A DNA stretch of 64,000 nt, taken from positions 11,727,997-11,791,996 of the forward strand of contig NC_087082.1 of assembly GCF_026151205.1 (NCBI RefSeq). The letters run 5' to 3'. Made by a program: the position numbers and the translations under genes. Source of the stretch: Bolinopsis microptera (Eukaryota; Ctenophora; Tentaculata; Lobata; Bolinopsidae). Below the pieces are notes generated by a model. It saw only the letters and a list, made by a program, of their open reading frames with translations, was not told where the DNA came from and ran no database searches. Positions 151 to 60,600 of the stretch are shown here, piece after piece. Numbering within the stretch: the stretch's first letter is position 1; every line of letters begins with the position of its first letter.

Positions 151-9205
<9,055 letters not shown>

Positions 9206-11116
9206 TAAAACGAAATTAAGTGATTAAGTGGTTAATTGAGTGATAGATCAATTAAACTTACTTGGGGTAATGGACGATTACGTATAACCTCTATGCCACC
9301 ATTATCTAGCCACTATATTTCGGAGTGGTTGTGTTAGGGCAGCGTATCTAATCTCCCATTACCACGCTTACTTTTATATTAACGTCGCTCGGTTATGTGA
9401 TAAGAGCGCTTTAGTTGACAATTTAATTAATGAGAGAGTTTGTACCATCACCTTATAATAAGAGAATTCAGGAAAACAACGTGTCATTCTGGGAATCAAG
9501 CAGCCACATAATTAGGATGAATTTTAGTAAATGTAACTGTGGAAAATTATTCGTAAATTAGACTTTCGTCAGATCTTTTCTAATAAATGTTGAATAAACG
9601 TTCCTTGTGGGATGATCACTGGTATAATGTGCTTGATGTTGTCACGTGTTATTAACACGTGTAGCACGTGACTGTGATATTTTCTTGTACTTTATAATAA
9701 TGACTTATCTGATTAACCCATTTTATGTTTAACCGGAGGAATTTTCGTTAACAAATAAATGCTTTACTTTTAAGTGCAAGACACAATTGTGAAGATGATG
9801 TAGAAATGACTTGAATGTGACAAAACTGACATTTTGCTTGAAAATTTTACGTCAATGTACAATACAACAATTTGATCGTTTATTTTTAAGATTTTATTTC
9901 ATTTTTATGTGTGTCGGTGTTGGACAGAGCGTATCTTATTTGGTCGATTTTCTCATATTTCAGGGGGTACAGTTATAAGCCTCGAACCGCGAACCAGTCT
10001 AAAACCAAGTAAATCAAAATTTTTCCGGGAATCCATTGGTTGCATTAATCTTCCGGAATTTATCTTCGGTTTCAATTTTATCAGGTCTAGCTGGATTGGA
10101 GTTCGGTGTCCGAAAATTTAAAGGTTTTTGAAACAAATTATAATTAAGCTGCTTTTTTTGGTTACCAATAAGAATTTGTGGGATTAGAGACACACCATAT
10201 TGACCAAATGTGATACGCCCATGTGTCGTTAGGGTTGATATGATTTTCTTTCTGATCATTTATAAAATTTAGTTATCCGTTTTCAGCAAGTTTTTTTAGA
10301 GTTCAATTGTTCGTTAATTCAGACAAAAGTTTGCTTTTTAAAGTCACATTTAACTTGATAAAACTTTCCAAACTTTGGCTCTCACCAGTCATAAACGATA
10401 TTAAATGATACGTTTCAGTGGATTTCTTTGACAATAAAGTGTGTTCGGTTTGAGATGAGATTAGGGTTGAACATTTTACTAGATAGAGTACAATAGAGCA
10501 TGATTTGAATAAACATAATATTTAGATTGTTAGCTGTAATTTTATAATTATCACACATACAAATTCTAGTTTAACGGTTTATAATATTGCGTTTTTTATT
10601 TGCGTTATAGGTTCCATCATTTCACAACTAAATAGCTGACACATTCATAGATTATTATCTTGAGAATCTTCAATATACAATATTATACCATCTTTAATAT
10701 ACAAATCAAAATTACGTTAAACTTAAAATTACAATTTATTCTGGTCTAAACATCAAATGAACACTGATCACATTCTTAAAGTGATTTCTAGTGATAAGCA
10801 AAGCTATTGCATATATGCACTATTGTATATATATATACACTTGTGTCTTGTATATATATATATACACTTGAATCTTTGCATGAACACTTTAACTCAAATA
10901 CGTTGATTCGTGTTAAATGTCTCGAACCTGTTTGATAAAACGCTAAAGTCACTTCAGCATGTCACTTCGCCATATCATCAGTGTTTATGAACATTGAACA
11001 CTGAAGCCTGGGGTCCCCAGGTAATAGAGTATAGTCATAGATAATAGAGCGTTAAAATCGTAAAATCTCGCGATCTTTCACCAAAGGAGCTTGTCCAATA
11101 TCTGGGCATGATTATT
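9206..11116. other. Intergenic region between convergent aPKC and MIOX
   Basis: Besides the aPKC 3' UTR, this AT-rich stretch holds two copies of a TATATATATATACACTTG unit (10826-10869) and, at about 10981-11023, a truncated copy of the short MITE described below, recognisable by its 3' palindrome CCTGGGGTCCCCAGG. I see no coding exon with splice context. Confidence 0.6.
9582..9598 (+). terminator. Likely polyadenylation signals of aPKC
   Basis: Two AATAAA hexamers (9582-9587 and 9593-9598) lie 380-390 bases after the aPKC stop codon, in AT-rich sequence suitable for a 3' UTR end. Position and motif only; there is no transcript evidence. Confidence 0.5.
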
Positions 11117-19031: not shown

Positions 19032-20164
19032 GTCTACGAGTACGATCAAGACGGATGAAACAATAATATAGGATTTATTTTTAAAGGGTCTGAGATTTAT
19101 GATCAGGTGTTGTATTTGTAATAACATCTTAACATCACGAGATCGTGTTGCATAAGGACGCTCGAAAAACACGCCGTAGCCAACTCTCGCTAGTATAACT
19201 ATAGGCCATAGGGTGTAAGTCACTTAGTCACTACATGGTGACTAAAATCCACGCGACGAACTTGAGAGTTGAGATGAATAATGAATATGTCGGCTCTTCT
19301 GCGACATTAAATAAAAGTAAAACATTAATTATGTAAAATGTTTATCACAATTTTGTATTTTGGTGTATGTAATATAATGGTATTCTAGGAAGTAATATAA
19401 AATATTGATATTGAATGTTATTGTTTACGTAATACTAAAATAATTTGCTGTGGCCAACTCATTCTAGATACAATTTGTTGTTTCTGTACATGTTTACAGT
19501 TTAGTGCATACTTCTGTATAATTGTGTATGTACTCATTACTCATACATCATTACTGGGCCGCGCTCAGCCTGTCATTCCGCCTAATCTCTATTCGGTTAA
19601 TGAACATAATAGCCTGGGGTCCTCAGGTAAATACATCATAACCCTTACTAGTTATCAAACTCTTCCACTCCCCATCATATAGTACTGAGCAATAGTATTA
19701 GTAATTAACCAACTAAATTTGGTGAACCCCATAGCTTGATTATTTCTCCCTACTCAACCTCCAATTTGTTGGTTCTTTTGTTTCACCTTGTCGCCCTCTC
19801 GGCCTTTCATGGGAAATTAGGTTATTTGTAGGAGTACTGCGAGGTTTTCAGAAGTAATAATATAAGGTGTCTACGTATAGAAATCTACATACGTCGTACT
19901 ATATTCTGCGTACGCTATGTGTGTTTACAATCTTGTGTGTATTAAGTGTTTCAATCGTGTTTCAATCGTCTCTCATGATCATATACTTTTCTGTGGTTAT
20001 ACATTTAGTAAGTTTGTTTTCTTAAATGAAAGATATTTAGACCACAAGTAAGGGAGCTATTTTTGACAAAAACACGTACCTAATATCTGATTATATTCTG
20101 CTTGAGAGTTGTGGCCTATAAAACTAGCGCAGTACTCCAATACCAGTTTCAGTACGCATTGGTT
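19032..20164. other. Stretch without recognised gene
   Basis: AT-rich sequence upstream of the possible 112-aa gene. Apart from the 80-bp MITE at 19551-19630 I see no exon, RNA gene or transposon end that I can support. Confidence 0.5.
19551..19630 (+). mobile_element. Short MITE-like element, 80 bp, 8-bp target duplication
   Basis: Begins TTACTGGGCCGCGCTCAGCC, ends CCTGGGGTCCTCAGGTAA, and is flanked by direct repeats ATACATCA (19543-19550 and 19631-19638). Same family as the elements at 31025, 36571, 37753 and 59846. Target size fits hAT- or MULE-like integration; no coding capacity. Confidence 0.85.
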
Positions 20165-23100
20165 GGCACTATCCGTCGCGGAGTCGAGTCCGCGGCGGAG
20201 CCGCCGGACTCCGAGCGGACTCCGGCGGAGCCGCCGGACTCCGAGCGGACTCCGGCGGTGCTCCGCCAAAATGTATTTACAGTGGACTCGAGTACATTTT
20301 GGCGGACTCCGAGCGGAGCCGAGCGGACTCCGAGCGGACTTTAAAGTCCGCCGCGGACTCCGAGCGGCTCCGCGGCGGCTCGGTGGAGTGTCCGCCGCGG
20401 ACTAAGCCACTAGGCGGACTCAGGTCCGCCGCGGACTCCGGCGGAGTGCTTGGCGGACTTCGCCGGACCTCTCCGCCAGACTTGAATCCGGCGGAGTCCG
20501 GCGGAGCTTGGCGGAGTCCGCCAGCTCGGCGGACTCCGCTCGGAGTCCGCCGGACTCCAACAGAGTTCACTGACTTCCGACCTCCGTCTTCCGACCCTCG
20601 GCTAAATTTGTCACGTGACATACAACATAGCATTTTGCAATATTGTGGTCAGATGAAAAGGTCGCTAGTGATAAACCTTAACCATTACCCTCACAATGTC
20701 AATAGTGTACAACTCTAGTCCTAACTTTGACCCTATAATGTATAAACGTTGACCCTAACCCTCCACCAAACCGTCCGCAGCGAAATATCAATGTCATTGA
20801 CTGGTCACGTGACCAAAACAATTTTTGTCATATTATCTCATTTTGTCATATTATCTCATTACATATGGGGAAGCGTTTTTAGCAAGCAAAAATACGTCGA
20901 CCATCACAGGACGACGCCAGCCAGCTGCACTCTCTACGCTCTTCGAGCTCCGATCGTCCTGTGACGAAGTAAGGACGAAGCCTGAGGTCCTCAGGTAACG
21001 GATGATGATTAATCACTCTACACTCGACTGTCACGTGACTTTTTCAACCGGTTCTCTATCTGGTCCTGGACGACTTTTTGAAATCCTAACCCTCTAATCT
21101 GATCCCAACCCTAACCCTAACCCAATCTTTAACAAAAGCATACACTAAAACCCTAACGAGAAATTAGACTAACTTCCTTATACGGTCATATCACGTGATC
21201 GAGACAGTTTTTTGCCAATATCTCGTCAGGGGAGCATTTTAACCGTATGTCATGGGGGGTGATTTGGAATCAGCGTCCGAAAATACATCGATTGAAGTTC
21301 GTTTTAACTGTCGGGGTCCCTTTTAGAACAATCTCGAAGATCGACTGTAGAGTGATTTATATATATTAATTTAGCACGCTCGTCAGGTAACATCGACCAC
21401 CGATTGAAAATTCAAAGATTTTTTGACATAAAGGTCAAATGTAAAACTAAAATCTTGATGTTGATTGATTGACGACGTCAATTTTTACCTCATTTTACCT
21501 AATTTTACCTCATCCCATTAAGGAACGCGCGCTGGGTAAGAAGAAACCTAGCGCGCCAGAGTGGAAGTCGGCGCCCTCATTAAATTTTTGGAGAAAATCG
21601 CTCGCCAAAATTTGTTGGACCAGGACGATGTCCTAGCCTGGCAGCTCATTGCGCGGCGCGTCGCAACGAGCTTCGTTGTTCGTCGACGTGCGACGAGCAA
21701 CGAGAAAAATTGTGTGGCGCGTCGAGTGGCACATCTTAACGGGGGATACGCGTATAAATTTCGATCGCTGACGTACAGCGCGCAGCACAGCTGCGAATGG
21801 CGTCAGCTAGTAGGAGTTCATCCTACAAGGCACATCGCGTTTACCTAGCTAACCAGGTCATTTCCGCCTCCGGCGGTCGCGCGCTACTGCAAGCGAGAGG
21901 GCTATAGTTAGAGCAACACATCGCGCCACAAGCCAAATATTTATCAACATCTTGACTAGCTACGCGGTCCTTTTCCGCATGCGCTCGCGCTATGCTCAAA
22001 AATTGACGTCGTCAATCAATCAACATCAAGATTTTAGTTTTACATTTGACCTTTATGTCAAAAAATCTTTGAATTTTCAATCGGTGGTCGATGTTACCTG
22101 ACGAGCGTGCTAAATCACTCTACAGTCGATTTTCGAGATTGTTCTAAAAGGGACCCCGACAGTTAAAACGAACTTCAATCAATGTATATGTATTTTCGGA
22201 CGCTGATTCCGAATCACCCCCCATGACATACGGTTAAAATGCTCCCCTGACGAGATATTGGCAAAAAACTGTCTCGATCACGTGATATGACCGTATAAGG
22301 AAGTTAGTCTAATTTCTCGTTAGGGTTTTAGTGTATGCTTTTGTTAAAGATTGGGTTAGGGTTAGGGTTGGGATCAGATTAGAGGGTTAGGATTTCAAAA
22401 AGTCGTTCAGGACCAGCTAGAGAACCGGTTGAAAAAGTCACGTGACAGTCGAGTGTAGAGTGATTAATCATCATCCGTTACCTGAGGACCTCAGGCTTCG
22501 TCCTTACTTCGTCACAGGACGATCGGAGCTCGAAGAGCGTAGAGAGTGCTGGCTGGCGTCGTCCTGTGATGGTCGACGTATTTTTGCTTGCTAAAAACGC
22601 TTCCCCATATGTAATGAGATAATATGACAAGATGAGATAATATGACAAAAATTGTTTTGGTCACGTGACCAGTCAATGACATTGATATTTCGCTGCGGAC
22701 GGTTTGGTGGAGGGTTAGGGTCAACGTTTATACATTATAGGATCAAAGTTAGGACTAGAGTTGTACACTATTGACATTGTGAGGGTAATGGTTAAGGTTT
22801 ATCACTAGCGACCTTTTCATCTGACCACAATATTGCAAAATGCTATGTTGTATGTCACGTGACAAATTTAGCCGAGGGTCGGAAGACGGAGGTCGGAAGT
22901 CAGTGGACTCTGTAGGAGTCCGGCGGACTCCGAGCGGAGTCCGCCGAGCTGGCGGACTCCGCCAAGCTCCGCCGGACTCCGCCGGATTCAAGTCTGGCGG
23001 AGAGGTCCGGCGGAGTCCGCCAAGCACTCCGCCGGAGTCCGCGGCGGACCTGAGTCCGCCTAGTGGCTTAGTCCGCGGCGGACACTCCACCGAGCCGCCG

Positions 23101-23278
23101 CGGAGCCGCTCGGAGTCCGCGGCGGACTTTAAAGTCCGCTCGGAGTCCGCTCGGCTCCGCTCGGAGTCCGCCAAAATGTACTCGAGTCCACTGTAAATAC
23201 ATTTTGGCGGAGCACCGCCGGAGTCCGCTCGGAGTCCGGCGGCTCCGCCGCGGACTCGACTCCGCGACGGATAGTGCC
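20165..23278. mobile_element. 3.1-kb foldback (palindromic) element
   Basis: The left arm (20165 to about 21486) and right arm (about 21998 to 23278) are near-perfect inverted copies of each other, starting GGCACTATCCGTCGCGGAGT. The outer ~400 bp of each arm is made of GC-rich repeats of CGGACTCCGAGCGGA and CGGCGGAGCCGCCGGA type. Further in, each arm has a partial MITE end (CCTGAGGTCCTCAGGTAA at 20979 and inverted at 22481) and telomere-like CCCTAACCC. The ~510-bp centre is GC-rich with an unassigned 95-codon frame (21561-21848). No transposase is recognisable. The flanks show no clean target duplication (CATTGGTT against CATTATTA). Confidence 0.9.
21561..21848 (+). other. Unassigned 95-codon open frame at the centre of the foldback element
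   Basis: Starts MEVGALIKFLEKIARQNLLD and is followed by an arginine-rich segment. I see no known domain. GC-rich sequence keeps frames open by chance, so this may not be a gene; it is listed because it is the only sizeable frame in the unique centre of the element. Confidence 0.2.
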
Positions 23279-26700: not shown

Positions 26701-29700
26701 CCATTTTATCACTCAGTATTTAGACTAGACTCTTGAGTATAAATTGTTCTGATAAACGTTATTGCAATAATTCTATGAAAGAGTGGGGAAAACGCGAACG
26801 AACAATTCCATTCACGCTGTAGTTTATAACAGAGTATTGAGGGACTTATAATTATAGTCTCTAGTTTTACTTCTCGTTGAATGTGAGGAGTAGAGCTACC
26901 AGAGGAGCTTGTATAATCGTATAGAGGAGGGGCTGTCAGTCCATATGATGATAAAGTATAATAACACGCTCTCTCTCTTGTCAGGTATACTGCGTGATTA
27001 GCAAGTTAGCATCATTGGAGCTGTACAACGTTCTTCTCAACAAACTTACCGAACTACACGCTGTTTCTGAAGCTGCTGTTCATGGTTTCCTCAGTGCCAC
27101 GGTCACTAATATTACTGTCTCTGTTTTAATTTCTTTGATTTGGTAGCATCTTTATTCTTTACGTGTTTTTATTTATTCGCACTCATATAATTGAATGGAA
27201 GATATCTGCGACATTTATTAGTGTATTCTACAGATCATGTGTAAATTTATCTAGATCCTCTTCAGATCTCCCTGCCAATCCCTGCGCCTGGCTGCAAAGT
27301 GCGGGCTAAACATCTCAACCACCTCAAAGGTATGTAATAACACTCATCTTCTGATCGTGTTTAAAATTAGTTTAATAAAAGCACACCAATTTATACGTAG
27401 AAATGAAAACAAATTCGAGACGGAGCCTCTTCGTTTAACAAAATAAATTCAGGTCGGCTAGAAGACGTGGAGATAGAACGGCCTTTAGATGGTGCTAGAC
27501 TGGAACACGTGGAGCTTAACAAACTGTTCCAATGGTTCACAGTCCAACAAGTAATAGAACTGTTCGGTAGTGTGCTCCACGAGCGTCGTATCCTCATCTC
27601 CTGCTCCCACCACCACCTCGCTAAACTATCCAGCTGTGTCTCCTCGCTTGCTACCCTCATATACCCGCTCAAGTGGGAGTGTATCTACATCCCAATACTT
27701 CCTAGACAGATGATTGAGGTTTGATCACGTGACAGGGGGATATACTGCTCGATAAAACCTAAATTACGGTGATCCCCCATGAGTTTTTCCAACTTTTTCT
27801 TTTCAATCGTAGAAACTGGGAGTGACTCGTATGAAATTTTAGGTCCCTGACTGTTCTCCACCGATCAATCTCAACTAATTGGTCGAGACATCTTTTCGTT
27901 CTAGCTTATTATGTCTTGTTGATTTGAAATTGAAAGTGTAATTATAATGAACAAAATGATTATATGATAATTAATATATTTAGTATATTTATAACTCTCT
28001 GAAAATAGCACTGTTCCAGGTAGTAACAGCCCCTACACCCTACTTGATCGGGGCTATGACAGAGGATTTACCAGCTGTTCAGAGGGAACTCGAGGAAGAT
28101 TCGGAACCACTTTTACACTTTGATATGGACACTGCTTCTTTTGTTAGGTTTGGCAGAAAAATTCGATACGTTCGACAGTGTCTTTAACATTGCAGAATTA
28201 AAACTAAATATCTAGCAGTAAATTGGAATATGTAGATAACAAGCTTATTGTAGACAACAAGCTTATTGTAGACAACAAGCTTAAGTTGTAGATAACAGGT
28301 TTAATGTAGGTAAACTTTTGTGACGAACCATCTCCAATTTACCCAGACAAAAGAGATAATTTTCTTGTACAGTCCACTGTAGAATATGGGATTCAGTGCA
28401 CTGTTGATCGGCAGGACGATTAGAACTAGGATTTCAAAGAGTAGAAAAGGAGGTCTATCACTAACAATGTGAAAGTAGACAGCAACCCCAATAAAAGATA
28501 GCCAGCTAGCCAGTTGGGTGCCAATCATAAGGAGGACCTTCACAGCCAGGGATGGTGCCTCTGCGTTTTGCCTGTTCCCGCCACCACCCAAATTCTCAAC
28601 TTCTCGCCGTGATATGACGTGTTTCCGTATGATGGCCAAGTATGTGAGTGTTATTATTGTGAGAAGGACTGAGAGCACAACAAGGTAGGAAATCTTGTAG
28701 ATCAGGTAAGATTCTTGCTCCTTGAAGACGTTGTGAACACAGAGTGGGGTGTTGCCATAGTACCCAATATCAGTGACATTGAACACGTTTCTGTTGGAGG
28801 TGATGTTGTTAAGGTTCCTGATGGTTGTGCGCAGATCTGTCGTGTTGGAGTAGTATCTCTCGTGCACCAAGTCTAGCCAAGTAAGGTTTACACGGCTAGA
28901 AGTTATGAAGGGGTTATCTTTGAAATTATGGAAGAAAATTTCAGTACGGAAGATGTTTTGAATGATATCAAATGGGAGAATAGGGATCAAGGCATTAACC
29001 ACATTAACGGTGATCAATAGTGCTGATATGGCATATATGGCGGACAGTTCGCTTTCGTATTCCATCCAAAGACAATTAAGACATCGTACCACACTCATAA
29101 GTGCTATAGCATTCAGTGACCCATGTGACGCTATCGAGAATAACATTCCCAGTAGTTGACAATAAATGCTTGATCTCCAAATTTCGTTCAAAGAGCAGAA
29201 GTCACCTTTAGAGTTGAGGATCAGGGCTGCTGCAACTATGCCACAATGGTAAAATCCCATTATCCCGTCAAAAGCGAATATCTGAAGACAGAGAAGTCTG
29301 TCGACCTTGCCTGCTTTTGAAGAAGGTGAACCTTTGTAGCAGTTGATACTCACTATAAGTATAACGTTAGCTACCAACATAAACAATCCCATCACACCCG
29401 TCAAATAAAGCAGGATATCTGAGTTTATGAAGATGTTAGCTGATCGTCCTCGTTCACAAGAATCACACTCATCCCGTCCGTTGGAGCAGTCATTGACATT
29501 GTCACATGTTTTACTAGCGGAGACCCATTCTAGGGACTGTGAACTGTTTAGGAAGCAGTAAAATCTACCAGCACATCCTATTTCGTCAGCGCCATTCGTA
29601 CAGTCCACAGTCTCGTCACATAACACTGAAATGTGAAATTGGTCCTGGCTCGTATAATTGGGCTGACACTCGAAAACAAAATCAATAACGTTTCCTAAAA

Positions 29701-32700
29701 ATACGTGTTCGCAAAACGTAGCCCAGCCGTCCTGTAGGAAACCCGGGACATGGGTGCAGTTATTTTCACAGTACTCTGATGTCGCGGATGAAGAAGCGCT
29801 GGAAAACAAAACAGTGTATGCTTCTCCAAGACACTTGTATAACGGCGTCTCCAACTGCACCTTACTCTCCAAAGTTCTAGTGCAGTTTAAATTCTCTACA
29901 TCTTCAATGGTGCAGTTTAAAGATAAGAAGTACTCTGAACCGTACAGACTCTCCAGCCTGCAGTAGTGCTTGGTTAGAAGACAAACATTTGGAGATTTTA
30001 ATCCAGTGCACGTTGCTTTGACAGAGCCTTCGCAGAGACATTCGTCATCTCCATTATCACAGTCAGTAACACCGTCACATAACTGGGGGAAGGTGATGCA
30101 ACCTCCGCTGTTTGGACAGAAGAATAAGTCAGTGGTCCTGTCTGTACAGTGGCATTCATCCGTCAAGCAATCTGAAGTGCCATCACAAAACCACGCGGGC
30201 TCCACTTGACAGAACCACGCTGCTTCAAACAGTTGTTCGGAAAATTCATTGTTCACTAACGATAAAGATTCTCTTAGAAGGTGTTCATCGATCACCATTT
30301 TGCAGACGTCCATCGTGCTGTTATTTTGAGGAGTATAATGTGTCAGCCAATTATTTTTAATGAAATGTTCAGCTGCTTTTTTGCAGGTTATTCGGGGGAG
30401 TTCAACAAATTGTAGCTGAGACCGATCTTCAATAAGCAGCGGGTCCACCAAGTAAGACATGGTTTGTTCCATAGTAGTACTTGCTGGAGTGGAGGGGTTC
30501 AGCTTCGGGTCGGAATGATAGGTAGGGAGGGATAGAGTGAGTAGTGGTGGTGGTGGGTCGGATGTGTAAAGTTTTAATGACACCAATAGCGCTATAAGTT
30601 GGCGTAACATATTCTTTCCTGAGGTGGATGGATAATTGGGTAAATTTGGTAGTAATATCCCGTCTTAGCTTCAGTTATGAATACGACAGATTATTAACAA
30701 TACTTACAGTTACAGTAACAGTTTCATTGAATGAGACATCCATTTAGAATCAAGTCAATTTGTTCATGACCCACGAGGAATTGGAAATACTGTAAAATTG
30801 GCTGAAATGTATGATATTTATGTTGTTGAGAGTTGAAATTGGTTAAAATATTAAATACCTACAAGTTCTAAAAGTTTTAAGGTATTTAGATTCTAGAAGT
30901 AAAAGCAGCAAAACATTTGATTATCATATAACTTAGGAACGAACATTTATTTTGCTGGAGCAAAATTTGAATCAGATTGGATTATAATAAATATTCATTA
31001 ATGATCGACCATGCTAGCTCCATTTTACTGGGCGGCGCTCAGCCTGTCATTCCGCCGAATCTTTATTGTTAATGAACATAATAGCCTGCAGCCTGGGTCC
31101 CCAGGTAAGCTCCATTGTGTGGCGTTCTTCTGTTTTTTTTTCAAAAAAAGTTTAGAATGTACATATATCCACTATCCAATATAGAATATCCGTGCATAAT
31201 GTAGTCAAACGACAAACAAAAGATTTTCCGAATCTCGAATATGTCTTTTCAGTTCTCGGCCATCATTGGGGTCCTAATTATTTTTCATATACCATGTCAC
31301 TGCAAATAAATGCACTTTGGCGTTTGTTCGAATTTGCGTGCAGAATTATCTTTGAAATCTCTGGTCACGAGACCTATATAGTTGTTTTCAACAACTCCCT
31401 CTCTGAAAATGATACTGGCGGCAAATATTACATTATCCTGTCCATCTAAGAGATTGGCAGCATGTTTCCGTTAGACACTTCATATGTTTGAGCTTGGATG
31501 GCGAATGGATGATCAAACAAGGAATTCTTTGGACAATGCTTGTGAACAAGAAGCTCGAACTTATCCTCATGAATGGCCATGTTGTTGCACTTAGCCCAAT
31601 TAACAACAGAGTTGAGATCATCCTGCATGACATCTTTGTCAGCCAAACTGTAGATATGCTTAAGAATCCTAGTGTCATCAGCAAAGAATCTGATGACAGA
31701 CCCTTTAAGGTTAACACATAGATTCATATCATTTATGAACAGAATGAATAACAGTGGCCCAAGAACGGTGCCTTGTGGAACTCCACTGAGGATTGCGGCA
31801 GCAAACGATGATACACCATCTAACACAACACATTGCTTCCTTTCAGTCAGGAAGGATCGGATCCAGTTTACCACCTTCTCATGAAACACCAATCTCTTCA
31901 TTTTCAGAAGCAGTAACCGATGATCGACCTTATCAAAGGCTTTGGCAAAATCCAAATATATAGCGTCAGTGTCTGCATTTCTAGTAAGACCTTGAACTGT
32001 ATCGTCTACGTGACTTAACAGCTGGGTAAGGCAGCTTCTTCCTGAGCGGAATCCGTGCTGGTTGTTGCAGAGTAACTGATTTTTCTCAATAAAGTCAACC
32101 ATAACACCACGGAGGATACGTTCATACACTTTACTTTGATGATGTGCGAAGTGAGAGCAATTCTGGCCTGTAGTTGACTGCCTTGGCCCTGTCACCCTTT
32201 TTAAATAGTGGTGTAATGTAGGTGTCTTTGTAGAACGATGGCACAGTACCGTTTTCAAATACCTCAATATACCTGGCCACTTTTTTACCCCCAAACTTTA
32301 ATTAAGTTAATTAGCCTGTAATCGACCATGCATATTTCCCCGAGAGACACTGATATAGACTATAGAGGTTTACTGTAAAAAGAAACATTACAAAATCATC
32401 ACCTTATGAAGTGAAAAGAAATATAAAATACCTCCTCCCAAATGAAGTCGAGAGTTAACAATGGAAAATATCACAGGTGTTACGGAGATGAGTCCACTCT
32501 TCTTCCCCCTAAATCTACCTCCATGATCCAGAACCAACTCCGGGCTCTTATTTGTACCCTTCATCAGGATGTTCAACTTCAGGCAGATAACACTGTTATA
32601 TCTCACGTCTTTCTTACTTTCATGTACAAACTTCTGGGTCACTTCAAAGATTTCATGGTTGGTAAAGCCAATGGGTTAAGTTGACTCATCCGGTCTAATG

Positions 32701-36430: not shown

Positions 36431-36570
36431 TATAATTGTAGTTCATAGTTGTCATACGTTGTATGACCCGCCACGCACGAGTGCGCGGCTCCCCCTGTAT
36501 CATAGAAACTCTAATATAGTGAAACGACAAAGGGTGTCACGACGTGATACAAATGAGCCTGCCCACTTCT

Positions 36571-36640
36571 TACTGGGCGGCGCTCAGCCTGTCATTCCGC
36601 CGAATCTTTATGAACATAATAGCCTGGGGTCCCCAGGTAA
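36571..36640 (+). mobile_element. Short MITE-like element, 70 bp, 10-bp target duplication
   Basis: TACTGGGCGGCGCTCAGCCT ... CCTGGGGTCCCCAGGTAA, flanked by perfect GCCCACTTCT repeats (36561-36570 and 36641-36650). The cleanest full-size copy in the window. Confidence 0.92.
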
Positions 36641-37752: not shown

Positions 37753-37849
37753 TTACCTGGAGACCCCAGGCTATCAGTAACATGTTCATAAACATATACA
37801 ATATAGAGATTCGGCGCGGCGGAATGAAAGGCTGAGCGCCGCCTAGTAA
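37753..37849 (-). mobile_element. Short MITE-like element, 97 bp, inverted copy
   Basis: Reads TTACCTGGAGACCCCAGGCT ... GGCTGAGCGCCGCCTAGTAA. Slightly longer and more diverged than its relatives; no clean target duplication remains. Confidence 0.75.
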
Positions 37850-43042: not shown

Positions 43043-44337
43043 TCTATCTGCTGATCTTTATTGGAAATCATCGTTAAAAATTTGATTCGGAACACAGCAT
43101 CATAACAATGTCCATAATTAATTTAGGTTAAGTCAGAAGAGCTAGTTAAGAAGCATAATGTTTACTCAAATCTTGCACAAATCAATGCATATATAGTGCA
43201 GACGCCAATTATAGTGATAAATATTAGGTCAACTGCATGTTACCAGGTTCAATACTGCCACAATTAACTTAAAGCTATTAGCAAAAAAAATGCAAAATGT
43301 TGTTTCTGACTAGTACATGAGTAACAATGCAGTTTAACTTAAAGTTAACTTAAAGTTATATTTATTATAGGAAACAACTTTTGATAAAATGATTGAACAA
43401 ATTCCATCTGCTCAATCGAATAATTTTATTTATTTTTATTAAATGCTCGGCTCACACATAGGCAAAATGCTAAAATTTAAAGTAAAACTACTTTAAAAAG
43501 CAGAAATTAAGCAAAAAAGGCTACCGAGCTACTGCAAACGACAATCTGCAACTCTTATTTAACATAGTTATACTTCTCCGCCGGATTTTGGCGTGCAAAT
43601 TAGAAAATATTTTCAAAGGAATAGACCTGCATGCCGCAAGTAGTTGCGTCTTGCATTTGACGGTAATTACGAGCCCTTGAAGGGCTTGAAGCAGCAATCA
43701 TGTGATTCATTGTTCAGCGGTGTTGTCAAACGACATGATATGCACGATTATTGTGAAGATGTAATGAAGGGCTAAACAAGTACACTGCTACTAGTATTAT
43801 AGCGGCAACCAGAAATCTGTAACCAAGCAAGCATGGTCAAAGCAGTGCCAACAAACGGATCTTCTTCAAAGCTTGAATATTGATGTCTGATGATAAGCAC
43901 TATTATCATTAAAACACATTCAGTGTTGACCATATCATCACTTTCCTAACTTACTGTTCATCATTGTCTTAGGCCACAATTGTACTTATAACAATATAAG
44001 CGATAACAAAACTCGAATGCTCTCAGGTAAGGACCCCAATTCTTCAGCGCGACAAATGAAACACAATTTATCAAAAGTTTTTATTGAGTTTTTAATTTGA
44101 GGACCTGCTCGGCAGCTGCCTGCTCGCAGTACATATCCATATCTCTTTATTCTAAACTCTCCAGATTCTAAAGTCTCTACCTCCATTATCGTTAGTTCTG
44201 ATTAAGCATCCAGGCAGATAACTGATAAGTATAGGTTGCCTTGAAGACGCACTGGTACAACCAAGAAATTAATGTTGGATTTCTCACAATGATCAGTAAT
44301 GTAAGAGAACAATATATGACAATCTGACCAACAAATT
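43043..44337. other. Stretch between the coiled-coil gene start and the satellite
   Basis: AT-rich; would contain the promoter of the minus-strand coiled-coil gene. No exon, RNA gene or transposon end that I can support. Confidence 0.5.
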
Positions 44338-47300
44338 CCAGCACCTCAATCGTGTCATATGCCATTAATGGTTGACTGACTGATAGGTTGCTGGTGAGAA
44401 ATTTAGGAAAAACTGTAAAATTTCGGCCATGGAAATTTCATCTTCAAAAACTGAAAATGGGACAGAGATTGGGACAATATGATTTTGCAAATTTGTTCGG
44501 GATTTTGACTCCCAGTACCTCAATTTGGTTTCATACCATCATCAATTAACTGTCTAATTGGTTTCTGGGCAAAAATTTCTTCCAATCTGTCAAATTTGTG
44601 TTCAGAAAATTTCATATTTGAAAATGGGACAGGATTTTGAAAATACAACTTTTCGTTTTGTTAAGCTTTCTACTGTGGGCTTCCTCCGCCCGAAATCAAA
44701 CTTCCAGCACCTCAATCATGTCATTTGGCATCTATAGTTGACTTACTAATTAGTTGTGGGTGAAAAAATCAGTCAAAACTATAAAATTTCGGTCCTGAAA
44801 ATTTCATCTTCAAAAACTGAAAATGGGACAGAGATTGGGACAATATGATTTTGCAATTTTGTTCGGGATTTTGACTCCCAGTACCTCAATTTGGTTTCAT
44901 ACCATCATCAATTAACTGTCTAATTGGTTTCTGGGCAAAAATTTCTTCCAATCTGTCAAATTTGTGTTCAGAAAATTTCATATTTGAAAATGGGACAGGA
45001 TTTTGAAAATACAACTTTTCGTTTTGTTAAGCTTTCTACTGTGGGCTTCCTCCGACCGAAATCAAACTTCCAGCACCTCAATCGTGTCATTTGGCATCTA
45101 TAGTTGACTTACTAATTGGTTGTGGGTGAAAAAATCAGTCAAAACTGTAAAATTTCGGTCCTGGAAATTTCATCTTCAAAAACTGAAAATGGGACAGAGA
45201 TTGGGACAATATGATTTTGCAATTTTGTTCGGGATTTTGACTCCCAGTACCTCAATTTGGTTTCATACCATCATCAATTAACTGTCTTATTGGTTTCTGG
45301 GCAAAAATTTCTTCCAATCTGTCAAATTTGTGTTCAGAAAATTTCATATTTGAAAATGGGACAGGATTTTGAAAATACAACTTTTCGTTTTGTTAAGCTT
45401 TCTACTGTGGGCTTCCTCCGACCGAAATCAAACTTCCAGCACCTCAATCATGTCATTTGGCATCTATAGTTGACTTACTACTTGGTTGTGGGTGAAAAAA
45501 TCAGTCAAAACTGTAAAATTTCGGTCCTGAAAATTTCATCTTCAAAAACTGAAAATGGGACAGAGATTGGGACAATATGATTTTGCAATTTTGTTCGGGA
45601 TTTTGACTCCCAGTACCTCAATTTGGTTTCATACCATCATCAATTAACTGTCTAATTGGTTTCTGGGCAAAAATTTCTTCCAATCTGTAAATTTGTGTTC
45701 AAAAAATTTCATATTTGAAAATAGGACAGGATTTTGAAAGTACAACTTTTCGTTTTGTTAAGCTTTCTACTGTGGGCTTCCTCCGACCGAAATCAAACTT
45801 CCAGCACCTCAATCGTGTCATTTGGCATCTATAGTTGACTTACTAATTGGTTGTGGGTGAAAAAATCAGTCAAAACTGTAAAATTTCGGTCCTGGAAATA
45901 TCATCTTCAAAAACTGAAAATGGGACAGAGATTGGGACAATATGATTTTGCAATTTTGTTCGGGATTTTGACTCCCAGTACCTCAATTTGGTTTCATACC
46001 ATCATCAATTAACTGTCTAATTGGTTTCTGGGCAAAAATTTCTTCCAATCTGTCAAATTTGTGTTCAGAAAATTTCATATTTGAAAATGGGACAGGATTT
46101 TGAAAATACAACTTTTCGTTTTGTTAAGCTTTCTACTGTGGGCTTCCTCCGACCGAAATCAAACTTCCAGCACCTCAATCGTGTCATTTGGCATCTATAG
46201 TTGACTTATTAATTGGTTGTGGGTGAAAAAATCAGTCAAAACTGTAAAATTTCGGTCCTGGAAATTTCATCTTCAAAAACTGAAAATGGGACAGAGATTG
46301 GGACAATATGATTTTGCAATTTTGTTCGGGATTTTGACTCCCAGTACCTCAATTTGGTTTCATACCATCATCAATTAACTGTCTAATTGGTTTCTGGGCA
46401 AAAATTTCTTCCAATCTGTCAAATTTGTGTTCAGAAAATTTCATATTTGAAAATGGGACAGGATTTTGAAAATACAACTTTTCGTTTTGTTAAGCTTTCT
46501 ACTGTGGGCTTCCTCCGACCGAAATCAAACTTCCAGCACCTCAATCGTGTCATTTGGCATCTATAGTTGACTTACTTATTGGTTACGGGTGAAAAAATCA
46601 GTCAAAACTGTAAAATTTCGGTCCTGGAAATTTCATCTTCAAAAACTGAAAATGGGACAGAGATTGGGACAATATGATTTTGCAATTTTGTTCGGGATTT
46701 TGACTCCCAGTACCTCAATTTGGTTTCATACCATCATCAATTAACTGTCTAATTGGTTTCTGGGCAAAAATTTCTTCCAATCTGTCAAATTTGTGTTCAG
46801 AAAATTTCATATTTGAAAATGGGACAGGATTTTGAAAATACAACTTTTCGTTTTGTTAAGCTTTCTACTGTGGGCTTCCTCCGACCGAAATCAAACTTCC
46901 AGCACCTCAATCGTGTCATTTGGCATCTATAGTTGACTTACTAATTGGTTGTGGGTGAAAAAATCAGTCAAAACTGTAAAATTTCGGTCCTGGAAATTTC
47001 ATCTTCAAAAACTGAAAATGGGACAGAGATTGGGACAATATGATTTTGCAATTTTGCTCGGGATTTTGACTCCCAGTACCTCAATTTGGTTTCATACCAT
47101 CATCAATTAACTGTCTAATTGGTTTCTGGGCAAAAATTTCTTCCAATCTGTCAAATTTGTGTTTAAAATATTTCATATTTGAAAATGGGACAGGATTTTG
47201 AAAATACAACTTTTCGTTTTGTTAAGCTTTCTACTGTGGGCTTCCTCCGACCGAAATCAAACTTCCAGCACCTCAATCGTGTCATTTGGCATCTATAGTT

Positions 47301-50300
47301 GACTTACTAATTGGTTGTGGGTGAAAAAATCAGTCAAAACTGTAAAATTTCGGTCCTGGAAATTTCATCTTCAAAAACTGAAAATGGGACAGAGATTGGG
47401 ACAATATGATTTTGCAATTTTGTTCGGGATTTTGACTCCCAGTACCTCAATTTGGTTTCATACCATCATCAATTAACTGTCTAATTGGTTTCTGGGCAAA
47501 AATTTCTTCCAATCTGTCAAATTTGTGTTCAGAAAATTTCATATTTGAAAATGGGACAGGATTTTGAAAATACAACTTTTCGTTTTGTTAAGCTTTCTAC
47601 TGTGGGCTTCCTCCGACCGAAATCAAACTTCCAGCACCTCAATCGTGTCATTTGGCATCTATAGTTGACTTACTAATTGGTTGTGGGTGAAAAAATCAGT
47701 CAAAACTGTAAAATTTCGGTCCTGGAAATTTCATCTTCAAAAACTGAAAATGGGACAGAGATTGGGACAATATGATTTTGCAATTTTGTTCGGGATTTTG
47801 ACTCCCAGTACCTCAATTTGGTTTCATACCATCATCAATTAACTGTCTAATTGGTTTCTGGGCAAAAATTTCTTCCAATCTGTCAAATTTGTGTTCAGAA
47901 AATTTCATATTTGAAAATGGGACAGGATTTTGAAAATACAACTTTTCGTTTTGTTAAGCTTTCTACTGTGGGTTTCCTCCGACCGAAATCAATTTCCAGC
48001 ACCTCAATCGTGTCATTTGGCATCTATAGTTGACTTACTAATTGGTTGTGGGTGAAAAAATCAGTCAAAACTGTAAAATTTCGGTCCTGGAAATTTCATC
48101 TTCAAAAACTGAAAATGGGACAGAGATTGGGACAATATGATTTTGCAATTTTGTTCGGGATTTTGACTCCCAGTACCTCAATTTGGTTTCATACCATCAT
48201 CAATTAACTGTCTAATTGGTTTCTGGGCAAAAATTTCTTCCAATCTGTCAAATTTGTGTTCAGAAAATTTCATATTTGAAAATGGGACAGGATTTTGAAA
48301 ATACAACTTTTCGTTTTGTTAAGCTTTCTACTGTGGGCTTCCTCCGACCGAAATCAAACTTCCAGCACCTCAATCGTGTCATTTGGCATCTATAGTTGAC
48401 TTACTAATTGGTTGTGGGTGAAAAAATCAGTCAAAACTGTAAAATTTCGGTCCTGGAAATTTCATCTTCAAAAACTGAAAATGGGACAGAGATTGGGACA
48501 ATATGATTTTGCAATTTTGTTCGGGATTTTGACTCCCAGTACCTCAATTTGGTTTCATACCATCATCAATTAACTGTCTAATTGGTTTCTGGGCAAAAAT
48601 TTCTTCCAATCTGTCAAATTTGTGTTCAGAAAATTTCATATTTGAAAATGGGACAGGATTTTGAAAATACAACTTTTCGTTTTGTTAAGCTTTCTACTGT
48701 GGGCTTCCTCCGACCGAAATCAAACTTCCAGCACCTCAATCGTGTCATTTGGCATCTATAGTTGACTTACTACTTGGTTGTGGGTGAAAAAATCAGTCAA
48801 AACTGTAAAATTTCGGTCCTGGAAATTTCATCTTCAAAAACTGAAAATGGGACAGAGATTGGGACAATATGATTTTGCAATTTTGTTCGGGATTTTGACT
48901 CCCAGTACCTCAATTTGGTTTCATACCATCATCAATTAACTGTCTAATTGGTTTCTGGGCAAAAATTTCTTCCAATCTGTCAAATTTGTGTTCAGAAAAT
49001 TTCATATTTGAAAATGGGACAGGATTTTGAAAATACAACTTTTCGTTTTGTTAAGCTTTCTACTGTGGGATTCCTCCGACCGAAATCAAACTTCCAGTAC
49101 CTCAATCGTGTCATTTGGCATCTATAGTTGACTTACTAATTGGTTGTGGGTGAAAAAATCAGTCAAAACTGTAAAATTTCGGTCCTGGAAATTTCATCTT
49201 CAAAAACTGAAAATGGGACAGAGATTGGGACAATATGATTTTGCAATTTTGTTCGGGATTTTGACTCCCAGTACCTCAATTTGGTTTCATACCATCATCA
49301 ATTAACTGTCTAATTGGTTTCTGGGCAAAAATTTCTTCCAATCTGTCAAATTTGTGTTCAGAAAATTTCATATTTGAAAATGGGACAGGATTTTGAAAAT
49401 ACAACTTTTCGTTTTGTTAAGCTTTCTACTGTGGGCTTCCTCCGACCGAAATCAAACTTCCAGCACCTCAATCGTGTCATTTGGCATCTATAGTTGACTT
49501 ACTAATTGGTTGTGGGTGAAAAAATCAGTCAAAACTGTAAAATTTCGGTCCTGGAAATTTCATCTTCAAAAACTGAAAATGGGACAGAGATTGGGACAAT
49601 ATGATTTTGCAATTTTGTTCGGGATTTTGACTCCCAGTACCTCAATTTGGTTTCATACCATCATCAATTAACTGTCTAATTGGTTTCTGGGCAAAAATTT
49701 CTTCCAATCTGTCAAATTTGTGTTCAGAAAATTTCATATTTGAAAATGGGACAGGATTTTGAAAATACAACTTTTCGTTTTGTTAAGCTTTCTACTGTGG
49801 GCTTCCTCCGACCGAAATCAAACTTCCAGCACCTCAATCGTGTCATTTGGCATCTATAGTTGACTTACTAATTGGTTGTGGGTGAAAAAATCAGTCAAAA
49901 CTGTAAAATTTCGGTCCTGGAAATTTCATCTTCAAAAACTGAAAATGGGACAGAGATTGGGACAATATGATTTTGCAATTTTGTTCGGGATTTTGACTCC
50001 CAGTACCTCAATTTGGTTTCATACCATCATCAATTAACTGTCTAATTGGTTTCTGGGCAAAAATTTCTTCCAATCTGTCAAATTTGTGTTCAGAAAATTT
50101 CATATTTGAAAATGGGACAGGATTTTGAAAATACAACTTTTCGTTTTGTTAAGCTTTCTACTGTGGGTTTCCTCCGACCGAAATCAAACTTCCAGCACCT
50201 CAATCGTGTCATTTGGCATCTATAGTTGACTTACTACTTGGTTGTGGGTGAAAAAATCAGTCAAAACTGTAACATTTCGGTCCTGGAAATTTCATCTTCA

Positions 50301-52726
50301 AAAACTGAAAATGGGACAGAGATTGGGACAATATGATTTTGCAATTTTGTTCGGGATTTTGACTCCCAGTACCTCAATTTGGTTTCATACCATCATCAAT
50401 TAACTCTAATTGGTTTCTGGGCAAAAATTTCTTCCAATCTGTCAAATTTGTGTTCAGAAAATTTCATATTTGAAAATGGGACAGGATTTTGAAAATACAA
50501 CTTTTCGTTTTGTTAAGCTTTCTACTGTGGGCTTCCTCCGACCGAAATCAAACTTCCAGCACCTCAATCGTGTCATTTGGCATCTATAGTTGACTTACTA
50601 CTTGGTTGTGGGTGAAAAAATCAGTCAAAACTGTAAAATTTCGGTCCTGGAAATTTCATCTTCAAAAACTGAAAATGGGACAGAGATTGGGACAATATGA
50701 TTTTGCAATTTTGTTCGGGATTTTGACTCCCAGTACCTCAATTTGGTTTCATACCATCATCAATTAACTGTCTAATTGGTTTCTGGGCAAAAATTTCTTC
50801 CAATCTGTCAAATTTGTGTTCAGAAAATTTCATATTTGAAAATGGGACAGGATTTTGAAAATACAACTTTTCGTTTTGTTAAGCTTTCTACTGTGGGCTT
50901 CCTCCGACCGAAATCAAACTTCCAGTACCTCAATCGTGTCATTTGGCATCTATAGTTGACTTACTAATTGGTTGTGGGTGAAAAAATCAGTCAAAACTGT
51001 AACATTTCGGTCCTGGAAATTTCATCTTCAAAAAATGAAAATGGGACAGAGATTGGGACAATATGATTTTGCAATTTTGTTCGGGATTTTGACTCCCAGT
51101 ACCTCAATTTGGTTTCATACCATCATCAATTAACTGTCTAATTGGTTTCTGGGCAAAAATTTCTTCCAATCTGTCAAATTTGTGTTCAGAAAATTTCATA
51201 TTTGAAAATGGGACAGGATTTTGAAAATACAACTTTTCGTTTTGTTAAGCTTTCTACTGTGGGTTTCCTCCGACCGAAATCAATTTTCCAGCACCTCAAT
51301 CGTGTCATTTGGCATCTATAGTTGACTTACTTATTGGTTGTGGGTGAAAAAATCAGTCAAAACTGTAAAATTTCGGTCCAGGAAATTTCATCTTCAAAAA
51401 CTGAAAATGGGACAGAGAATGGGACAATAAGATTTTGCAATTTTGTTCGGGATTTTGACTCCCAGTACCTCAATTTGGTTTCATACCATCATCAATTAAC
51501 TGTCTAATTGGTTTCTGGGCAAAAATTTCTTCCAATCTGTCAAAATTGTGTTCAGAAAATTTCATATTTGAAAATGGGACAGGATTTTGAAAATACAACT
51601 TTTCGTTTTGTTAAGCTTTCTACTGTGGGCTTCCTCCGACCGAAATCAAACTTCCAGCACCTCAATCGTGTCATTTGGCATCTATAGTTGACTTACTAAT
51701 TGGTTGTGGGTGAAAAAATCAGTCAAAACTGTAAAATTTCGGTCCTGGAAATTTCATCTTCAAAAACTGAAAATGGGACAGAGAATGGGACAATAAGATT
51801 TTGCAATTTTGTTCGGGATTTTGACTCCCAGTACCTCAATTTGGTTTCATACCATCATCAATTAACTGTCTAATTGGTTTCTGGGCAAAAATTTCTTCCA
51901 ATCTGTCAAAATTGTGTTCAGAAAATTTCATATTTGAAAATGGGACAGGATTTTGAAAATACAACTTTTCGTTTTGTTAAGCTTTCTACTGTGGGCTTCC
52001 TCCGACCGAAATCAAACTTCCAGCACCTCAATCGTGTCATTTGGCATCTATAGTTGACTTACTAATTGGTTGTGGGTGAAAAAATCAGTCAAAACTGTAA
52101 AATTTCGGTCCTGGAAATTTCATCTTCAAAAACTGAAAATGGGACAGAGATTGGGACAATATGATTTTGCAATTTTGTTCGGGATTTTGACTCCCAGTAC
52201 CTCAATTTGGTTTCATACCATCATAAATTAGATGTCTAATTGGTTTCTGGGCAAAAATTTCTTCCAATCTGTCAAAATTGTGTTCAGAAAATTTCATATT
52301 TGAAAATGGGACAGGATTTTGAAAATACAACTTTTCGTTTTGTTAAGCTTTCTACTGTGGGCTTCCTCCGACCGAAATCAAACTTCCAGCACCTCAATCG
52401 TGTCATTTGGCATCTATAGTTGACTTACTAATTGGTTGTGGGTGAAAAAATCAGTCAAAACTGTAAAATTTCGGTCCTGGAAATTTCATCTTCAAAAACT
52501 AAAAATGGGACAGAGACTGGGACAATATGATTTTGCAATTTTGTTCGGGATTTTGACTCCCAGTACCTCAATTTGGTTTCATACCATCATCAATTAACTG
52601 TCTAATTGGTTTCTGGGCAAAAATTTCTTCCAATCTGTCAAATTTGTGTTCAGAACATTTCATATTTGAAAATGGGACAGGATTTTGAAAATACAACTTT
52701 TCGTTTTGTTAAGGTTTCTGCTGTGA
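44338..52726. repeat. Satellite array, 23 units of ~366 bp, each an old dimer
   Basis: The phrase GATTTTGACTCCCAGTACCT recurs every 365-367 bp from 44501 to 52549, giving 23 units, most over 97 per cent alike by eye; the first is diverged. Each unit splits into two related halves of about 174 and 192 bp, starting CCAGCACCTCAATCGTGTCA and CCAGTACCTCAATTTGGTTT. The halves share CTAATTGGTT.TGGG, AATTTCAT.TT and GAAAATGGGACAG. The right edge breaks abruptly at about 52726. Short open frames inside are by-products. No gene lies in the array. Confidence 0.97.
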
Positions 52727-57600: not shown

Positions 57601-60600
57601 GAAGCTGTAGATAGCCCCTTTCAGGAATTCGTGAGTTCTGTTGGCACTTATAGGGAGAGTTACTGCAACAGGAAGTTTGGTAAAGGAGTATTCGGACATT
57701 GCAGTTCGTGGCTGAATATTTATTATTTTAAAACTTTTCACCTAATTTGAAACAATAAAAAGGAATAATCGGCCATCCTAGAAAAATGCAAAATCCTTTA
57801 CTCTCAATATGTCTATTGAATCTGTAAGACGCAGTAATCGATAAAAAACGGTAAACATGAATAAAGAAAAATGCAAAATAGGATATGGAATCCGTAACCA
57901 ATGAAGGAACTAAATATAAATAAATGAAGTCAAATTGTAAAACTATAAGAAGGTCAAAGAGTAAATAGCCGGTTGAGTAGTAAGATTTAATACAATAAAA
58001 AGGAATAATCGACCATCCTAGAAAAAGGCAAAATCCTTTACTCTCAATATGCCTATTGAATCTTTAAGAGGCAGTTATCGATAAAAAATGGTCAGCACGA
58101 ATAAAGAAAAATGCAAAATAGAATATGGAATCTGTAACCAATGAAGGAACTAAATATAAATAAATGAAGTCAAATTGTAAAACTAGAAGGTCACAGAGTA
58201 GATAGCCGGTTGAGTAGTAAGATGATACCTACTCATCTCACCTTGCATTTGGTCAGCTGATCCATATTGAAGTTATGTGGAGGACAGGGAATTTTGCTAC
58301 CACAATTATAGCTTATACTATTTCTTCAATGTTCATGGGCTGAGATCAGAAAAGATGAGTTATTTTGGAATGTAAGGTACAGTTATTGGCACTGGCGTTT
58401 TTTGTTCATCCGAATTATAATTTTGGTTTTATCGAGGTATCCCCTTAATTGCGATACAGTCTCGGAAAGCATGCCTGGGAAAAATTTACTTTTTGAGAAG
58501 AATTAGAAAGACTGAATTTCACTGAAGCCCAACAACAAAACTACTTTAAAAGTTAGGCCTAGTCGACTATGCTCATTATAAAAAATTTTGAAAGTGCCAA
58601 AACATATTGCTTTAATCTAGTACATTTTCCGAACATGAAGTTATTTCCCCGACCAAATCATTAAACAGTTTCGGTGTATGTCCCTGGCTGCAATTTGAAT
58701 TTGTTTAATTGTCTCAAAAAGACTTTTATTTTCAAAGCAGGAATAACAGATTGTAAAATTCCTAACCTAGATAGTAGATAATATCGTATACAGCTATACA
58801 CCACTCCCAACTCCAAAGAGAACATGGGTCATATTCAGAAGCAACAACTTGGACATACCATTCCCTCTTAAACCATATATCTATCTGCAATGTAACATTA
58901 CAAGAGGAATCAAATAGTTGCAGTATTGCTGGTCATAAATGTTATATAAAATAAACATTCAGTTAAACTAAAACTAAAATTAATTGCCATGATCTATTCG
59001 TCAGTAACTAATAACATATAGGCCTAGTCGACTATGCTCTTTGTTCTTGGCACAGGGCTCTTTGTGGATTCATTCTTGATTAGATTTATTAAGGTACACA
59101 ATCCTATGCTATCGATAAACATTTTTCAAAGTTTTTCTGAAAACTATTCTTTTTCATGTTTTATGCTGCCCTGATCATTATTAGCCGAAAATATTTTTTC
59201 GTATTCAAAGTCCGCACCTACCCTTCGATATACGATGTTGGACTCGAGGGTTCCCCCCTTGTAATGCGCTCTTGTTCCCCCCTTCTCCCCTTGTAAAGCG
59301 ATCTCGGATAAACCTTTAAAACAGGATCTACAGGGTGAACCACATAAAATTTGACTTTTAAAAAAGGTATCACCCGGGACACCTGCCTCATTAGCAAATT
59401 TTAACAAAAATTAACAAAATCTAGAAAACTTTAACAAAATTTAACAAAATTTAACAAAATTTTACAAAATTTAACAAAATTTTACAAAATTTGACAAAAT
59501 TTTACAAATTTTGCTGCTAACAGTCACCAATGTCCGCCAATTATGTCCGCTTATATCCGCTTATGTCCGCCTATGTCTTGTCATGTCCTGTCCTGTCCGT
59601 TTTGGATTCTATGAGACAAGCGGACATAGACGGACGTGTCACCCCCCCCCAATATTATTAATATAGTTAAAGTAGTATACCCGGCAACGAGACGCAGTTT
59701 GGAGCTGCACGGGTCGGTAAGTTATGAACTAAGTTTTCCTTTGTTTATTTCCGTATTAACCAGTAACCACGGACAACCAGCATATTCTTTGATATTACCC
59801 TCATCCAAACGTGCTCACCAACAGTAAACGTAAACTGTTGTCCGTACCTGGGGACCCCAGGCGCCGCCCAGTAATGTTGTCCGTGACCAGTGACGAAATA
59901 AGCACGTGCGTAATGAGTTAATCATGAAAGTAGGGAGGTAATTAAATAACTCATTAATGAGCAGTGGGAGTGCGTCCTCAGAGTATAAGAGTATAAGTAC
60001 TCAGACACTTTAGAGTAAGAGGTTGAGAAACTAAACATACAGTTCTCGCGCACGTGCAGAGGCTAAGGAAATAATATTAACGAGCATGGCACGTGCAGTA
60101 GGTACTGGGAGAACTGAAGACCAATCTGTGTTATTAAGTGGCATGTCTAGGTAGCACTGGTCCAGATTTATAATTGTTGCGAAAATTTCTCAGGGAACAG
60201 GAGAGAGCTATCGAGTTTATTTTGTTTCTGATAAATAATTTGTATGTTTTGTTTGAATAGTTGTCTTCTAAATGAACGATATACACTTTCTGAGATTAAG
60301 TCTTATTTTTCGGTAGACCTTTCACTTAACACACAATAAGTTGTAATAAGTCACCACAATCATAACCATGATAGTCAAAACCAAAACAACATTAACGTCG
60401 ACGAAACAGAAGTTGTAGTCATCGATTTTCTAGTATTTTAATCCTGATACAATCGTTGTTTGTCTCTTTTAATAATGAACAAAATATTGCCCTTTAAATA
60501 TCAAAATTAACTTCTTTGTTTGCTAATTTGTTGTTTAAATGCTGATCCATGAGACCAAAAGTCATAACTTGAGACACTTTAACAACCGTCAACCCTCCAG

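Follow-up and report, generated by a model that had tools for sequence, protein, structure and literature searches.

A 29-bp insertion made of the two ends of a MITE family in Bolinopsis microptera, probably the remnant of an internal deletion

The window insertion

A 29-bp insertion in the Bolinopsis microptera window (the whole stretch of 64,000 nucleotides that was analysed, to which all positions without a contig name refer) is composed of the left and right ends of a MITE family fused to each other, and lies between two direct repeats. The insertion is confirmed as real, and its present form is probably (about 0.8) a deletion remnant of a MITE of about 80 bp that was cut down after landing. 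Read directly, positions 59836-59884 are TGTTGTCCGT / ACCTGGGGACCCCAGGCGCCGCCCAGTAA / TGTTGTCCGT. The minus strand of the insert is TTACTGGGCGGCGC fused to (GC)CTGGGGTCCCCAGGT, and family ends account for its whole length, as the earlier note on this DNA had claimed in describing it as only the two ends of a short MITE family. The features of the site are:

59846..59874, minus strand: 29-bp insert, the two ends of the MITE family fused; no other match in the source genome when up to 3 mismatches are allowed
59836..59845, no strand: direct repeat copy 1, TGTTGTCCGT, taken as a shared base added to a target duplication of 9 or possibly 8 bp
59875..59884, no strand: direct repeat copy 2, TGTTGTCCGT; the same duplication as 59836..59845
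59861..59862, minus strand: putative deletion junction with microhomology GC (2 bp), or GCCTG (5 bp) with an L021-like parent, from a comparison in which the insert was extended by two family-end letters
59846..59861, minus strand: right-end hairpin CCTGGGGTCCCCAGG, kept from the full element, as read from the sequence

The hairpin is no more stable than its shuffles (z -0.59 over a 31-nt stretch), and strong secondary structure was inconsistent across seven stretches, with z ranging from 0.0 to -2.7.

The flanking repeat had been reported as a perfect 10-bp duplication; the duplication is present, and 9 (or 8) bp with one shared base is the best reading of its size, because 21 of 22 duplications in the family measure 8 or 9 bp. 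Beside the intact TTAC end the duplication is 9 bp (CGGACAACA), which leaves GTAA without its last A, and in the alternative reading it is 8 bp (GGACAACA) and GTAA ends in C instead of A; the tenth base may belong to the element itself. The same boundary effect is seen in L029, whose duplication of 7 bp grows to 10 bp once element letters are included; against it stands L010, scored as lacking a duplication, which has an exact 11-bp repeat offset by 2 bases.

A search of the genome for a second copy of the window site with a 521-base query recovered the site and, apart from it, just two short partial matches, both on C1 and neither covering the insertion, and no empty site for the locus was found within the 332 kb of sequence examined. 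Upstream of the insertion, positions 59391-59580 hold two short minisatellites with a 10-bp period (TTAACAAAAT and TTATGTCCGC units).

The full-size family

Other members of the family, or parts of them, occur in the window as follows:

19551..19630, plus strand: full-size member of 80 bp, duplication of 8 bp (ATACATCA)
31025..31108, plus strand: full-size member of 84 bp, duplication of 8 bp (GCTCCATT)
36570..36640, plus strand: full-size member of 71 bp, duplication of 9 bp (GCCCACTTC)
37753..37849, minus strand: full-size member of 97 bp, no duplication seen
10950..11024, plus strand: diverged member, left end unrecognisable, right-end hairpin intact
20979..20998, plus strand: right-end hairpin alone, a weak profile match (E 0.059) within a 1.27-kb inverted repeat
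22478..22497, minus strand: right-end hairpin alone, a weak profile match (E 0.059) in the other arm of the same inverted repeat

The arms of this inverted repeat (20223-21486 and 21998-23250) are 97% identical and each carries one family right-end hairpin.

The termini of the family are TTAC...GTAA, and its inverted repeats of about 10 bp are short and imperfect (TTACTGGG/TTACCTGGGG, also read as TTACTGGG / CCCAGGTAA; the ends are also given as TTACTGGGC/CCCCAGGTAA). Within the window, only the members at 19551 and 31025 combine a TTAC/GTAA pair with a flanking exact 8-bp repeat. The relatives had earlier been described as 70-84 bp long with duplications of 8-10 bp. Three window members do measure 71-84 bp and have duplications of 8, 8 and 9 bp, but one is 97 bp long and has none (37849-37753), the lengths among the matches listed extend from 58 to 103 bp, and the repeat given as GCCCACTTCT at 36570 is 9 bp at the TTAC boundary.

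The source genome searched comprises 264.65 Mb in 232 contigs. Exact ends, TTACTGGGCGG and CCCCAGGTAA, placed 25-85 bp end to end occur 436 times, and the looser ends TTACTRGG/CYCAGGTAA at 44-103 bp occur 2,825 times, a count that includes tandem-array units and a few overlapping matches. A chance pattern was rejected on reversed controls, which gave 0 matches against these 436, 5 against the 2,825 and 1 against the 22 obtained with the looser ends at 22-42 bp. Members have a median length of 81 bp in 99 of 100 matches listed, all on C1 (one overlapping match was dropped, and lengths and coordinates were entered by hand), and at 58-103 bp they are too short to encode a transposase. Among 30 typical C1 copies, whose end letters are fixed by the search pattern itself, 22 are flanked at the TTAC/GTAA boundary by a target duplication (one mismatch allowed), which is 8 bp in 13, 9 bp in eight and 7 bp in one, as against 2 of 870 when the flanks were taken from different copies. 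A search for bacterial, archaeal and viral relatives with a 29-base left-end pattern found no exact match. By the features tested, that is short length, absence of coding, inverted-repeat ends, one size class of duplication and high copy number, the family is a MITE family.

Short two-ended copies and their junctions

The 22 matches at 22-42 bp represent 18 independent sites. When the window copy is added and four duplicated pairs are collapsed, 19 independent short sites result, 13 of which are flanked by a duplication of 8-10 bp (no more than one mismatch); their sizes are 22 bp (one), 26 bp (three), 29 bp (two, including the window copy), 30 bp (one), 33 bp (two), 36 bp (one) and 40 bp (three). 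A control with crossed flanks gave 8 of 506, most of these presumably being the duplicate pairs. Six of the 19 are without a duplication, and some short matches of this kind may have arisen by chance, L043 and L051 looking unrelated inside. Nearly every short site has its own junction; the one exception is the 33-bp form, which is present at two independent sites, no third having turned up when up to 3 mismatches were allowed.

One of the 33-bp copies, L035, has an empty relative. Its joined flanks with one TCTAGCTAT align to L009 without a gap, 145 of 151 positions being identical, and identity is 93% over a longer stretch of 175 positions. Therefore at least L035 is a true insertion, and both insertion and shortening would be fairly recent there. 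For L056 an empty site was matched in part, with a messy junction. L033 (C5:4637848) and L036 (C25:43235), both 33 bp, have a right flank in common at 99.5%, and the left flank of L033 is swapped at the element's edge for a poly-C run and other sequence, a boundary that reflects either a rearrangement or an assembly fault.

For six of the 13 duplicated short copies, two pieces of full-size copies rebuild the sequence exactly, with overlaps of 2, 3, 1, 3, 6 and 3 bp. The mean overlap over all possible internal deletions is 0.64 bp, a comparison that takes the six positive overlaps of 13, chosen after the result was known, and in which the overlap of L031 depends on two added letters. L032 splits with zero overlap, and L034, L035, L050, L053, L054 and L056 contain unexplained bases in exact two-piece splits. 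Microhomologies of at least 3 bp in two window copies predict exactly L046 (36 bp), L036 (33 bp), L044 (26 bp) and a 20-bp form treated below, and predict L049 (22 bp) except for one subfamily letter; the rule covers five of the 13 duplicated short copies (L035, L036, L044, L046 and L049). A 19-bp product is also predicted, and three 19-bp sites exist, matched by length and ends alone. Predicted products of 28 and 45 bp are absent from the size searches of the genome, and the 37- and 40-bp copies examined differ in sequence from the products predicted.

The 20-bp form and tandem arrays

A two-ended search at 17-21 bp gave 61 genome matches and 0 in the reversed control. Of the 61, 12 lie outside arrays and measure 18-20 bp, and the other 49 are units of three tandem arrays:

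C2:4736714-4736965: tandem array, 20-bp unit, period 29, spacer 9 bp
C6:20478070-20478788: tandem array, 20-bp unit, period 28, spacer 8 bp
C11:539394-540458: tandem array, 21-bp unit, period 29, spacer 8 bp

The spacers follow from subtraction of the units (20, 20 and 21 bp) from the periods (29, 28 and 29), and their sizes equal those of the family's target duplications; one spacer sequence is known, ACGTGTTAC on C2. The arrays are most simply explained if an ultra-short insertion together with one duplication became the unit of a minisatellite. The 20-bp form, TTACTGGGGTCCCCAGGTAA, is found exactly at six dispersed sites and with one mismatch at six more, in addition to the C2 and C6 arrays. 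The exact and 18-20-bp sites include C9:16471315, which has a one-mismatch neighbour 25 bp away, and the 20-bp sites C2:5697982 and C14:99101 lie beyond one mismatch from the 20-mer.

Outside arrays, 43 sites measure 50-61 bp, three 43-49 bp, 18 measure 22-42 bp and 12 measure 18-20 bp (eight of them 20 bp), after 47 of 93 matches were dropped as belonging to arrays or adjacent pairs and with lengths and coordinates entered by hand. The size distribution dips at 43-49 bp and climbs again at 20 bp. Other very short copies, whose absence the earlier note had named as evidence against mobility of so small a unit, are therefore present, and a few of these 18 and 12 sites may be due to chance.

Loss of ends and change of length

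The frequency with which one end is lost was taken from 76 consecutive exact right ends on C1, made up of sets of 30 and 40 that were examined and 6 taken as complete from the exact-end search. Eleven have no left end, as classed by eye (10 if L061 and L120, which have a common flank, are counted once), and 0 are two-ended and under 58 bp. Kept out of the 11 were L088, L112 and L126, which belong to one repeat, L081, L082, L087, L092 and L099, which belong to another, and the small left-end changes in L062, L072, L105 and L118. L097, with a one-mismatch 8-bp repeat at 33 bp and no TTACT end, and L067, with an exact 8-bp repeat at 176 bp, may not be simple end losses. As one-ended loss is far commoner in this sample than loss of the middle only, ordinary erosion acting on so large a family can account for the short copies. 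L011 (68 bp) and L012 (58 bp) stem from a single inserted element that was duplicated locally, and their different lengths show that length changed after insertion.

The second of the repeats set aside here is a dispersed repeat that ends in the family right end (TACGCCAGGCTATG...GTAA) and is perhaps a longer relative. In L082 the left end lies about 370 bp upstream of the right end, forming a two-ended unit with, by eye, a one-mismatch 8-bp repeat. In L100 a family member is inserted in the end of another member, and GGCCCAGT from that end is its target duplication.

Origin of the 29-bp form

It is proposed that a non-autonomous DNA-transposon (MITE) member of about 80 bp inserted at the window site with a target duplication of 8-9 bp, and that about 50 internal bases would then have been lost at a short microhomology (GC...GC, or GCCTG...GCCTG in an L021-like parent) while both ends and the duplication remained. 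Such a loss might proceed through repair, replication slippage or interrupted gap repair after transposase cutting, all of which would leave a similar sequence signature. The proposal is supported by the uniqueness of the form, by the 2,825 full-size matches as against 22 short ones, by the separate junctions of the short copies and by microhomology at several related junctions. Several findings weigh against it. The genome search found neither a longer allele nor a paralogue of the window site, so that deletion after insertion there is inferred, as is its repair route. Duplications are about as frequent in short copies (13/19) as in full-size copies (22/30), which fits the insertion of already short forms equally well, and the recurrence of the 33-bp form (two sites) and of the 20-bp form (many sites) goes beyond single events.

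The opposite possibility, that the element moved into the window site already as a unit of 29-31 bp and that the ends alone suffice for the transposase, draws on the clean target duplication at the window and at 12 other independent short sites, on the precise empty site of L035 and on the recurrence of the 20-bp form. It is nevertheless unlikely, given that the window form is unique in the genome, that nearly all short sites have a junction of their own, that some forms match the microhomology prediction and that full-size matches are more than 100 times more numerous. Of the two options that the earlier note had left side by side, internal deletion after insertion is thus favoured and mobility as a 29-bp unit is unsupported. 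Within the deletion reading, the loss might have been coupled to the transposase through interrupted (abortive) gap repair at an excision site and not through random erosion, a tentative variant that would account for the preservation of both ends and the duplication. Extra bases at junctions, such as those seen in L034 and L050, might be left by abortive gap repair. Medicago PIF/Harbinger elements generally follow an abortive gap repair model (excerpt of PMC2213677). However, 11 of the 76 right ends had undergone one-ended loss whereas none belonged to a two-ended short copy, and because one-ended losses are so far in excess no special end-preserving process is required. It is highly improbable that there was no insertion at all and that a chance palindrome lies between two 10-bp motifs like those of the minisatellite at 59541-59580 (TTATGTCCGC units); TGTCCG motifs do occur nearby, but family ends make up the whole length of the insert and the two-ended pattern at 22-42 bp exceeds its reversed control by 22 matches to 1.

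A related question is posed by TTACTGGGGTCCCCAGGTAA. That versions consisting of the ends only are mobile, and that this 20-mer is a transposing unit far below the DNA bend length, is a rather doubtful prospect. It draws on the recurrence of the 20-mer, on array spacers of target-duplication size and on the renewed rise in site numbers at 20 bp. The rival view takes the 5-bp repeat CTGGG as a hot spot for deletion: loss of the bases between the two CTGGG motifs gives this very 20-mer, and pairing within the element could create such a hot spot. But the 6-bp AGCCTG, which should be no less prone to recombination, yielded a single independent site (L046).

Candidate transposase

The leading guess for the mobilising enzyme is a Mutator-like (MULE) transposase. 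The MULE transposase family PF10551 has 88 matches in the genome, counted irrespective of TTAC...GTAA ends, some of them in open frames of about 500 codons. The family has the MULE trait of 8-10-bp target duplications and is without the inverted repeats of more than 100 bp that are typical, not universal, of MULEs, its own being about 10 bp. The mixture of 8- and 9-bp duplications speaks against hAT. No autonomous partner with the same ends was found within the 332 kb examined, where the longest pair with both ends and an exact duplication measured 184 bp.

Other features of the window

A satellite array of about 8.4 kb occupies 44333-52725, with a period near 366 bp and self-matches that are 93-99% identical. 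An inverted repeat of 356 bp has arms at 4488-4843 and 5284-5639 that are 96% identical. A long open frame at 28301-30610 has matches to LDL-receptor class A and rhodopsin-type seven-helix (GPCR-like) domains, below the Pfam curated cut-offs, and a reverse-transcriptase fragment lies at 31446-32294 (Pfam RVT_1, E 1.8e-24).

Significance and comparison with known systems

The single window locus matters little and taken alone is an ordinary fossil. The family is of wider use as a test set, as it combines about 2,800 full-size matches with about 30 short sites outside arrays that keep both ends (18-42 bp), and a duplication is seen at 13 of the short ones. It can be used to ask what the minimum length of a mobile transposon is and how MITEs shrink. 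The tandem arrays suggest in addition that an ultra-short insertion with one target duplication can seed a minisatellite. The open-licence literature, searched by topic and not by family sequence, gave nothing on the MITE family or on the shortest mobile MITE, and no minimum MITE size was found in an excerpt of PMC12595863.

Like other MITEs, the family is short and non-coding, has thousands of copies with matching ends and keeps to one size class of duplication; unlike them, its inverted repeats are short and imperfect and its right end can form a hairpin of its own. A median of 81 bp, in the 99 listed places, is at the small end of the MITE range. Muta1 of Aedes aegypti, a Mutator-like element, has mixed 8- and 9-bp target duplications, and MULEs typically have inverted repeats of more than 100 bp (excerpt of PMC5225508). 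The family also mixes 8- and 9-bp duplications and its genome has PF10551 matches, but its inverted repeats are only about 10 bp. Tandem P elements are joined by junctions of target-duplication size, according to a review (excerpt of PMC9659126), and hairpin elements are described from sponge mitochondria (excerpt of PMC2800124). The yeast mitochondrial GC clusters GC42 and GC18 (42 and 18 nt) are GC-rich, hairpin-forming, dispersed and flanked by short direct repeats (excerpt of PMC4478555). The short copies resemble them in being very short, GC-rich, hairpin-forming and dispersed between short direct repeats, whereas the GC clusters are mitochondrial, have AG or ACT as repeats and differ in sequence, and the family resides in a 264-Mb genome with duplications of 8-9 bp.

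The internal eliminated sequences of Paramecium are transposon-derived and have been shortened by deletion to 26-28 bp with both ends kept; they are still excised and show a 10-bp periodicity with a floor of 26 bp (excerpt of PMC3464196). The pieces of the family likewise shrink with both ends kept, but its two-ended sites reach 18-20 bp. Overall, deletion is the most likely source of the short copies, which makes them derivatives of a known kind.
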